A stretch of DNA of 49,340 bases from Candidatus Magasanikiibacteriota bacterium (GTDB lineage Bacteria > Patescibacteriota > Patescibacteriia > Magasanikbacterales > JACTTX01): contig JACTTX010000001.1 in assembly GCA_015661005.1 (NCBI GenBank), forward strand, positions 1-49,340, in the 5' to 3' direction. The translations under genes were made by a program, and so were the position numbers. How positions within the stretch are numbered: the stretch's first letter is position 1; the number at the start of each line of letters is the position of its first letter. Positions 1,552 through 48,888 of the stretch are shown here, piece after piece. The notes under the pieces were generated by a model. It searched no databases. It was not told where the DNA came from and worked only from the letters and a program-made list of their open reading frames with translations.

Positions 1552-2512
1552 TGATCTTGTCGGGAACGAGCGAGCCAAAAACATTTTGGAACGCGCATTT
1601 TTGCACTGCACACTTTCCCACGCTTATCTTTTTGCCGGGCCAAAAAGCATCGGCAAGTTCACGGTGGCGTCCAAACTGGCGCAGGCGCTTCTTGGTGTTT
1701 CCAATCTCACCCTGCATCCGGATTTTCGGTTCGTCCATCGCGAGCATGATGAAAAAACCGGCAAAATGCAACGGGATATTTCCGTGGAACAAATCAGGGA
1801 GTTGATTTCCTGGGCATCCGGTTCGGCGCAGGCGGCCACCAATATTAAAATCGCGATCATTGACGAGGCGGAGAGATTAAACGTGGCCGCCGCCAACGCC
1901 ATTCTCAAAACATTGGAAGAGCCAAGCGGCAACGCTCACTTTTTTTTGATTGCCGCTGATGAAGAAATTTTGCCGACCACCATTCGCTCGCGCTGTCAGC
2001 TGGTCCGTTTCACCAATGCCCGGGACGCGGAAATGGAAGCGTTGGCGGAAACACTCGGACTCGCCAAAGATGACGCGGCCAAACTTTTACCGCTCTCGGC
2101 GCAAAGTCCGGGTCGCTTGGTGCGGTTGGCCACGGACGCGGAATATCAGGCGCGGCAGATCAGGGAAGCGCAAAGATTTATGGAACTTAAAACCCTGCCG
2201 CTCCATGCCCGCTTCCAGGCCGTGAGTGATTTTTGGGACGCGGATGGAGATCACATGGAATCAAGAGACAGATTGGGAGAAGTTTTGGGATTGTGGATGC
2301 TGATGACTCGCAAATCATTGGCGATGGGTGAGGCAAAATCGACGTTCTTGATTGGAGAACACGTCGATTTTGTCTCACCCATCGCCAAGCAAGATGGCCA
2401 TTTGCTTCCTTTTCTAAAACTTCTCACCGAATCGCGCCTTGATTTGCGCCACAATGTTCATCCAAAATTTATCATCAATCAATTATTAATTGCCATGTCT
2501 TATGAAAACTAA
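1526..2512 (+). CDS. holB: DNA polymerase III delta' subunit-like ATPase
   Basis: ATG at 1526 (MSDASTIFDDLVGNERAKNILERAF); LSHAYLFAGPKSIGKFTVA, AAANAILKTLEEPSGNAHFFL, TTIRSRCQ motifs. Confidence 0.88.
   Translation: MSDASTIFDDLVGNERAKNILERAFLHCTLSHAYLFAGPKSIGKFTVASKLAQALLGVSNLTLHPDFRFVHREHDEKTGKMQRDISVEQIRELISWASGSAQAATNIKIAIIDEAERLNVAAANAILKTLEEPSGNAHFFLIAADEEILPTTIRSRCQLVRFTNARDAEMEALAETLGLAKDDAAKLLPLSAQSPGRLVRLATDAEYQARQIREAQRFMELKTLPLHARFQAVSDFWDADGDHMESRDRLGEVLGLWMLMTRKSLAMGEAKSTFLIGEHVDFVSPIAKQDGHLLPFLKLLTESRLDLRHNVHPKFIINQLLIAMSYEN
2318..2388 (+). repeat. Conserved-centre palindrome (family A), copy 1, inside holB
   Basis: TTGGCGATGGGTGAGGCAAAATCGA-CGTTCTTGATTGGAGAACACG-TCGATTTTGTCTCACCCATCGCCAA. 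Confidence 0.97.
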
Positions 2513-7176: not shown

Positions 7177-7289
7177 AAACGCAAAGCGTTTAGAAGTGTC
7201 CCCAATAGATATGTAAACGCAAAGCGTTTAGAAGTGTCCCCAATAGATATGTAAACGCAAAGCGTTAGAAGTGTCCCCAATAGATATAT
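7177..7289. repeat. Three tandem copies of a 38-bp unit containing a hairpin (family B)
   Basis: AAACGCAAAGCGTTTAGAAGTGTCCCCAATAGATATGT at 7177, 7215 and 7253 (third copy lacks one T). Confidence 0.95.
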
Positions 7290-11025: not shown

Positions 11026-11871
11026 ATGTCCTTTTTCAAACGTCTCGCCCAGAGCATCGTGAACATTAATTCATACCGTGACAGCCATAAAGATCAGAAG
11101 TCGGCGTGGCAGTATTTTTTAATGTTTTATCTGGTGGTGGCGTTTTTGATGACGTCGTTTTTTGTCATTCAAGGTTTCCGTGTTTTCGGTCAAGCGCTCC
11201 GCGATTTTGAAACCAATGCGCCGGATTTCATTGCCCGCACTGAAGGTGAGGGTTGCGGCCAAGCGGCGGCGGCCAAAGCGGACGCCTCTAAAAGCGCCAC
11301 CACGGAAGCAACTGTCGGCGCCGCGTGCAAACTGGTGATAGAAAAATTATCAATGCCGTACGTTTACAAAAAAGATGATTTTGTCGCTGTCATTGACACC
11401 ACCGGCAAGATCGCCAATATACCGGATGACGCCACCCTTTTTGTGAACGCCGACGGCTTTATGTATCGTGAGCCAAACAGAGGCAACAGATCATTCAGTT
11501 GGGCCGGCGCCAAAAAATTTGAAACGAGCAAAGCCCAAGTGGTGGAACGCGTCCGCTCGTTCCGCGGTGTTGGCGGCGCGGTTTTGGCGCTGGTATTCTT
11601 TGTTGTCATCTATGTAGGAATAATGGTCTTCCGGATTATTTTTATTGCTTTTTGGTCGCTGATTGGACTCATTGTTGTCAAAATTCGCAAACAGGCGCTC
11701 TCTTACTCTGATCTTTTGGCCAACGCCATCTACGCTTTAACCACGGCGGAAATTGCGTATCTACTGGAACGGCTCACCAAATGGCGGATCCCGTTTCTTT
11801 TCACGGTAATTTTTCTCATTTACTTTTTCCTCGCGATTAGAAAGCAGGGGAAGATAGAGGGTGGAGAATAG
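11026..11871 (+). CDS. DUF1189-like membrane protein
   Basis: 281 aa; FFKRLAQSIVNINSYRD N-terminus and C-terminal TM helices. Confidence 0.6.
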   Translation: MSFFKRLAQSIVNINSYRDSHKDQKSAWQYFLMFYLVVAFLMTSFFVIQGFRVFGQALRDFETNAPDFIARTEGEGCGQAAAAKADASKSATTEATVGAACKLVIEKLSMPYVYKKDDFVAVIDTTGKIANIPDDATLFVNADGFMYREPNRGNRSFSWAGAKKFETSKAQVVERVRSFRGVGGAVLALVFFVVIYVGIMVFRIIFIAFWSLIGLIVVKIRKQALSYSDLLANAIYALTTAEIAYLLERLTKWRIPFLFTVIFLIYFFLAIRKQGKIEGGE

Positions 11872-11905
11872 AGAATGGAAGTTGGAGACTGGCGAATGGG
11901 AAGGC
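11850..11905 (+). repeat. Degenerate heptanucleotide tract (family C)
   Basis: Reads in 7-mers: gatagag ggtggag aatagag aatggaa gttggag actggcg aatggga. Confidence 0.6.
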
Positions 11906-11960
11906 ACAAATAGCGTTCTTGATTGGAGAACACGCTATTTGTGCCTTCCCATTCGCCAGT
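11888..11960 (+). repeat. Conserved-centre palindrome (family A), copy 2
   Basis: ACTGGCGAATGGGAAGGCACAAATAG-CGTTCTTGATTGGAGAACACG-CTATTTGTGCCTTCCCATTCGCCAGT. Confidence 0.97.
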
Positions 11961-30701: not shown

Positions 30702-30877
30702 GGGAAGGTCATTCCTGTTCGCGAGACATGGGTTTGCGCCACCTTAATGAAGTATCGGTGCGAAAGCAATGTGCAAATGACGTTCTTGATTGGAGAACAC
30801 GTCATTTGCACATTGCTTTCACGAACAGACAGACGGAGGCGCGGGACCCGTGTCGAGCGAACAGGAATGACCTTCCC
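30702..30877 (+). repeat. Conserved-centre palindrome (family A), copy 3, extended arms
   Basis: Outer arms GGGAAGGTCATTCCTGTTCGC / rc; inner arms GAAAGCAATGTGCAAATGA / rc; core at 30781-30801. Confidence 0.95.
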
Positions 30878-33450: not shown

Positions 33451-33488
33451 GGGGACACGTCTAAGGGCTCTGCCCTTAGACGTGTCCC
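33451..33488. repeat. Family B hairpin
   Basis: GGGACACGTCTAAGGGCTCTGCCCTTAGACGTGTCCC perfect inverted repeat. Confidence 0.9.
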
Positions 33489-40843: not shown

Positions 40844-40906
40844 AAGGTGTCACTCTCAAAGGGGTCAATTATAAATTAGAAGTGGCGCCTTTGAGAGTGA
40901 AACCTT
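40844..40906. repeat. Inverted repeat related to family B
   Basis: AAGGTGTCACTCTCAAAGG ... CGCCTTTGAGAGTGAAACCTT; shares GTCACTCTCAAA with 7169-7179. Confidence 0.8.
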
Positions 40907-45145: not shown

Positions 45146-45290
45146 GCGCAAATGTCGTTCCTGTCCTATGTTGAATAGTTACCGGCAAATGTCGTTCCTA
45201 ACTGGCGTTGAATAGCAACTTGCAAATGACGTTCTTGATTGAAGAGCACGTCATTTGCAAGTTGCTATTCAACACGCACGTCATTTGCGC
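45146..45290 (+). repeat. Conserved-centre palindrome (family A), copy 4, with tandem half-copies
   Basis: Inner perfect arms 45207-45273 around CGTTCTTGATTGAAGAGCACG; GCAAATGTCGTTCCT units at left. Confidence 0.92.
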
Positions 45291-48796: not shown

Positions 48797-48813
48797 GGCT
48801 TTTGTCGGTTTAT

Positions 48814-48884
48814 CGGGGACAGTTCTAAAGGGGACACTTCTAAACGCAAAGCGTTTAGAAGTGTCCCCTTTAGAACTGTCCCCG
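48814..48884. repeat. Nested family B palindrome
   Basis: GGGGACAGTTCTAAA[GGGGACACTTCTAAACGC AAA GCGTTTAGAAGTGTCCCC]TTTAGAACTGTCCCC. Confidence 0.95.
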
Positions 48885-48888
48885 ATTG

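Follow-up and report, generated by a model that had tools for sequence, protein, structure and literature searches.

How can a repeat keep its centre constant when its arms differ from locus to locus and yet match each other within each locus? The question is raised by a palindrome at position 11888 of the window, the 49,340-nt stretch of a Candidatus Magasanikiibacteriota genome analysed here (contig JACTTX010000001.1, positions 1 to 49,340). An earlier note, made from the letters of the DNA, had grouped it with three further loci around a common 21-nt core that pairs with itself and leaves an asymmetric bulge on the 3′ side. We find this core (core A) at all four places, exactly in copies 1 to 3 and with 2 mismatches in copy 4, against a chance expectation of 0 (Table 1). 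Each copy folds into a single hairpin with a 2-nt bulge on the 3′ side, as the note had described, with a DNA ΔG of −26.8 to −38.3 kcal/mol (z −9 to −14). The arms measure 28, 29, 22 (+32 outer) and 29 nt and are 91–100% complementary, and loci 3 and 4 are nested palindromes of two levels.

Table 1. Palindromic copies and an adjoining repeat tract in the window.
Feature	Position	Strand	Description
Copy 1	2318..2388	+	71-nt palindrome, core A at 2343-2363, in frame within holB-like ORF 1271-2512
Period-7 degenerate tract	11844..11887	+	Purine-rich (GGTGGAG AATAGAG AATGGAA GTTGGAG), entering left arm of copy 2; from sequence and period-7 autocorrelation over all copies
Copy 2	11888..11960	+	73-nt palindrome with perfect arms, core A at 11914-11934, intergenic
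Copy 3, two-level palindrome	30702..30877	+	Outer arms 30702-30733 / 30846-30877
Copy 3, inner level	within 30702..30877	+	Arms 30762-30783 / 30799-30820, core A at 30781-30801
Copy 4, outer left units	45148..45206	+	Two tandem 37-nt units, arm plus CGTTCcTG half-cores
Copy 4, inner level	45204..45276	+	Core A variant at 45230-45250, arms 45207-45235 / 45245-45273
Copy 4, outer right half	45274..45290	+	ACGCACG TCATTTGCGC, completes outer palindrome

Across the draft genome (870 kb, 44 contigs) core A occurs in 48 copies at ≤3 mismatches, while a reversed control pattern gave 0. A covariance model trained on 37 copies returned at least 124 matches, both strands counted, among 150 scored of 672 candidates. 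About two dozen of these carry a second core, CGTTCTTGTTCTAAGCAACACG (core B), which is equally a member of the family. After removal of duplicates 78 cores could be read, and 67 of them have paired arms (41 with core A and 26 with core B). Units of 116–193 nt are 88–98% alike between loci, most flanks differ and one subfamily has sharp element ends; the family thus shows the many dispersed copies, sharp ends and unrelated flanks of a MITE-like element. An artefact of assembly or amplification might be suspected in a draft of 44 contigs, but many loci lie within long contigs, and artefacts would not share a core, as these copies do alongside subfamilies with common flanks. We consider such an origin most improbable. 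The family is mostly intergenic, with only 4/67 copies inside ORF calls (simple ORF calls), and the convincing case among these is copy 1 in holB. There the element lies within a linker of HolB; its insertion at this site is not proved, the linker being variable in length.

The arms and the core have diverged to very different degrees. Between copies the mean difference is 10.3/22 positions (~47%) in the arm and 1.1/21 (~5%) in the core, and the conserved part comprises the core and the adjoining AAATG / CATTT. In an ungapped alignment of 41 copies the core is nearly invariant, as are AAAT at −6 to −3 and A at −18, and the remainder is variable. The arms had been described as locus-specific and self-complementary. 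Complementarity within each locus holds; between loci the arms retain some relatedness, with GAAtaG at about −20 to −15 and AAAT in common and a division into subfamilies. Divergence within the arms is concerted. In 37 aligned copies 91.9% of cells are paired and 25/32 pairs have changed on both sides, with 304 double-changed cells compared with 97 ± 7.5 in shuffles (0/500 shuffles reach 304). The covariation score of 0.635 (shuffled, 0.172) is lost when the partner is shifted by 1 to 3 columns. Neither of the two outcomes that the earlier note had named as counting against it, few other copies and arms that do not covary, was therefore observed.

Concerted change of this kind could mean that selection keeps the arms paired in a structured RNA, for instance a hairpin of a UTR or 3′ end whose apical loop is conserved. 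The mostly intergenic location and the conservation of loop and bulge agree with this, as does the orientation of the palindromic copies, whose core is co-directional with the genes in 30 tandem contexts and opposite in 9 (p = 0.001); outer cores have no such bias (10 vs 8). However, convergent and divergent contexts are equally frequent (11 each), so placement is unlike that of a terminator, and the only Rfam matches at gathering score in the window are tRNAs. Moreover, the pairing itself does not resemble that of an evolving RNA stem. When the position adjoining the core is excluded, 1285 of 1365 cells in 65 copies are Watson-Crick (~94%), with 24 G-T, 10 A-C and 46 other cells; complementarity is thus reached without G-U intermediates. 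A stem that evolves through G-U pairs favours transitions, whereas among the symmetric differences between nearest-neighbour copies 68 are transversions and 64 are transitions, and a further 65 changes are one-sided. The scarcity of wobble pairs and the equality of transversions and transitions argue against stem evolution via G-U, and we regard the RNA explanation as unlikely. The orientation bias of the core toward neighbouring genes still leaves room for a selected function.

The earlier note had offered a mobile or template-switch-maintained palindrome, or a structured RNA or DNA element. We favour the first of these, both of its parts together; the second is disfavoured on its RNA side by the pairing data above. 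Thus, we propose with moderate confidence that the family is a genome-specific, non-autonomous set of short dispersed palindromes of REP/MITE-like kind, mobile, and with arms homogenised by template switching during replication. Under this model the arms (22–29 nt) would drift outside the conserved part, and switching of template within the hairpin at the fork would re-match them (quasipalindrome correction). Template switching, or recombination between the arms, would also invert the core in situ. Palindromes do sit in the apical loop of other palindromes, and the family would spread by transposition, as the dispersal, the shared units and the nesting suggest. In published work, template switching between inverted repeats is recognised by homogenised arms together with an inverted spacer (PMC8604942, PMC8794818). 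Since both are present here, template switching would account for the concert of the arms and for the inversion, although an inverted core could also arise by arm recombination. The conserved core is not explained by template switching alone.

Inversion of the core can be seen. At L008 and L013(+) the palindrome is inverted relative to flanks in common with L009, L016, L026, L059 and L060. Moreover, about 30 copies have one palindrome within the core of another. With an outer core recognised at up to 2 mismatches in 8, so that a few calls may be chance, inner and outer cores have the same orientation in 17 of 31 nested copies, opposite orientations in 13 and both in 1. When the inner palindrome is removed, the outer core of several copies is ~21 nt long and split 14|7 (by eye), and L134 is nested at three levels. 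Several smaller features accompany these. Both arms of L002, L020 and C33:18331 have an equal 1-nt change in length (by eye). Adjacent symmetric changes number 104 against 86 expected, a slight excess among pairs that are not independent. A G.A mismatch often occupies the position adjoining the core, and correction apparently stops short of that position.

A dyad could also be selected as a DNA–protein binding or exchange site, for a recombinase or a chromosome-organising factor, with arm exchange at the core yielding chimeras. AAAT is nearly invariant beside the core on both arms, L001, L017, L027 and L031 are indeed chimeras with arms of two types, and GC skew on the element strand is >0 at 33/44 loci. 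Skew and gene direction do not separate replication from transcription as the cause of the orientation bias. Chimeras are few, however, and a binding site has no need of mirrored arms of 22–29 nt outside its conserved positions, which makes such a site a doubtful explanation. A third route to matching arms is snap-back copying, in which new copies arise from one arm and the core, and the core folds back and primes synthesis of the second arm. Perfect arms, a core that self-pairs with a fixed bulge, and the outer palindromic arms of L025 and L032, which differ between the two loci, are compatible with it. No direct intermediate was seen, and the arms share a family consensus, which indicates that they travel with the core; we consider this route quite improbable. 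A related reading, that the element transmits its self-folding core and one arm, that the other arm is regenerated by fold-back synthesis and that older copies are entered at the loop by younger ones, also seems to us unlikely; if it held, each copy would be palindromic by construction.

The flanks of the copies have a degenerate period-7 signal, with lag-7 identity of 0.320 on the left and 0.302 on the right compared with 0.252 in the window. Degenerate heptad tracts (GAATAGA/GAATGGA/GAAGCTG-like), at 11844-11887 and in the flanks of many copies, lead into the arms. One such tract apparently continues into an ORF at its C-terminal end (L120, C26:25521-26207).

Lastly, we sought the family elsewhere. 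Searches of 85 further genomes from the order, of 380 sampled from the phylum, and of GTDB contigs, IMG/VR, phages and plasmids gave no convincing copy. The core matched in 6/95 genomes searched as relatives, its own included, and the other matches have 3 mismatches and lack palindromic arms, as does the single core match in the GTDB 220 contigs (L056, Anaerolineae). Model R1, run over the order and the phylum sample, gave only a weak palindrome in G070 (L082, G070:C161), with similar arms (AATAGTAACTTGTAAATGG) and a different centre. These results speak for a narrow range among the genomes searched, which include no other member of the same taxonomic family, and for a palindromic repeat family without a match in those collections. 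No empty site was seen in these genomes. Palindrome density is 12.6 per 100 kb in its own genome, in stretches chosen around copies, and 1.7–3.7 per 100 kb in the relatives G012, G034 and G022, which have no large family.

Among known systems, Rickettsia palindromic elements are dispersed palindromes conserved along the element. The present family is alike in its dispersal and in one in-frame genic copy but is conserved mainly in the core, a distinction drawn from description, not sequence. REP/BIME palindromes mobilised by RAYTs (PMC3733652) and REPINs (PMC3116915) are likewise short, intergenic, many-copy, genome-specific and sometimes genic, and two RAYTs are encoded in this genome. However, the foot of a REP stem bears a conserved tag, GTAG or CGTC, that is left unpaired, whereas in 41 copies here no conservation is seen at positions −21 to −26 and 41 to 46, and the conserved part is the apex. 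Most REP stems are 6–9 bp, compared with 22–29 bp here. Mobile hairpins of organelles (sponge RHE, PMC2800124; Volvox palindromes, PMC2670323) also spread through intergenic DNA; they belong to other lineages, and the likeness drawn here concerns their spread. Quasipalindrome template switching (PMC8794818, PMC8604942) offers multi-site compensatory change, arm homogenisation and loop inversion, described at single loci or in rRNA, whereas tens of parallel copies occur here in one genome. Such copies supply many parallel natural cases in which template switching could be measured. Compensatory change is usually taken to prove an RNA structure. In this genome, tens of paralogous hairpins covary strongly and bear marks of arm copying at the DNA level (few wobbles, transversions equal to transitions, inverted cores), a caution for RNA discovery by covariation.

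The earlier note had looked to an HUH/Y1 or other transposase with linked copies. The genes between neighbouring copies, where recognisable, are ordinary and include no transposase (by eye). The two RAYT genes lie on contig C32 and have no copies of the family at their flanks. Their terminal repeats (GGGGACAC-type or related) are of the GGGGWSAS type and unrelated to the palindromes, unlike the REPs of RAYT systems, and model R1 finds no copy in the RAYT loci. An IntI/XerA-like integrase was also considered as the recombinase of the core A and core B hairpins, and its own attC-like sites differ from them in sequence. With both the RAYT repeats and the attC-like sites different, no enzyme is tied to the family. 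Integron attC sites resemble the hairpins in complementary arms of divergent sequence and in extrahelical bases, but they have conserved R boxes at the foot and a variable apex, whereas here the foot is variable and the apex constant, and the core palindromes form no cassette array. The earlier remark that a constant centre with variable arms is the opposite of attC is thus right for this family; the integrase's attC-like sites are a different matter.

A second palindrome family (GGGGACAC/GGGGACAG...TTCTAAA and relatives) is present at 48812-48886, 33452-33488, 7177-7289 and 40844-40906, and resembles the terminal repeats of the two REP-associated tyrosine transposase genes on C32 (L100, L101). 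The repeats of L101 agree with GGGGWSAS, the motif described for TIR-flanked RAYTs (PMC3733652). The integrase (L135/L157, C19:9976-10830), closest to IntI4/XerA, stands beside a 67-nt attC-like palindrome (TTCGGCAAAA...TTTTGCCGAAC). This palindrome is found at C8, C19 and C44 (L169, L170, L171), ≤15 nt from the contig end in C19 and C44. Counterparts of the integrase in other families of the order reach 64% identity, compared with ≤37% for HolB of those families. As judged from these sequences, an integron-like array and transfer are possible. Immediately past the integrase stop codon (L135 1440-1465, − strand) are two copies of GCACGGCATTTG, which resembles the right half of the core palindrome element (ACACGgCATTTG).
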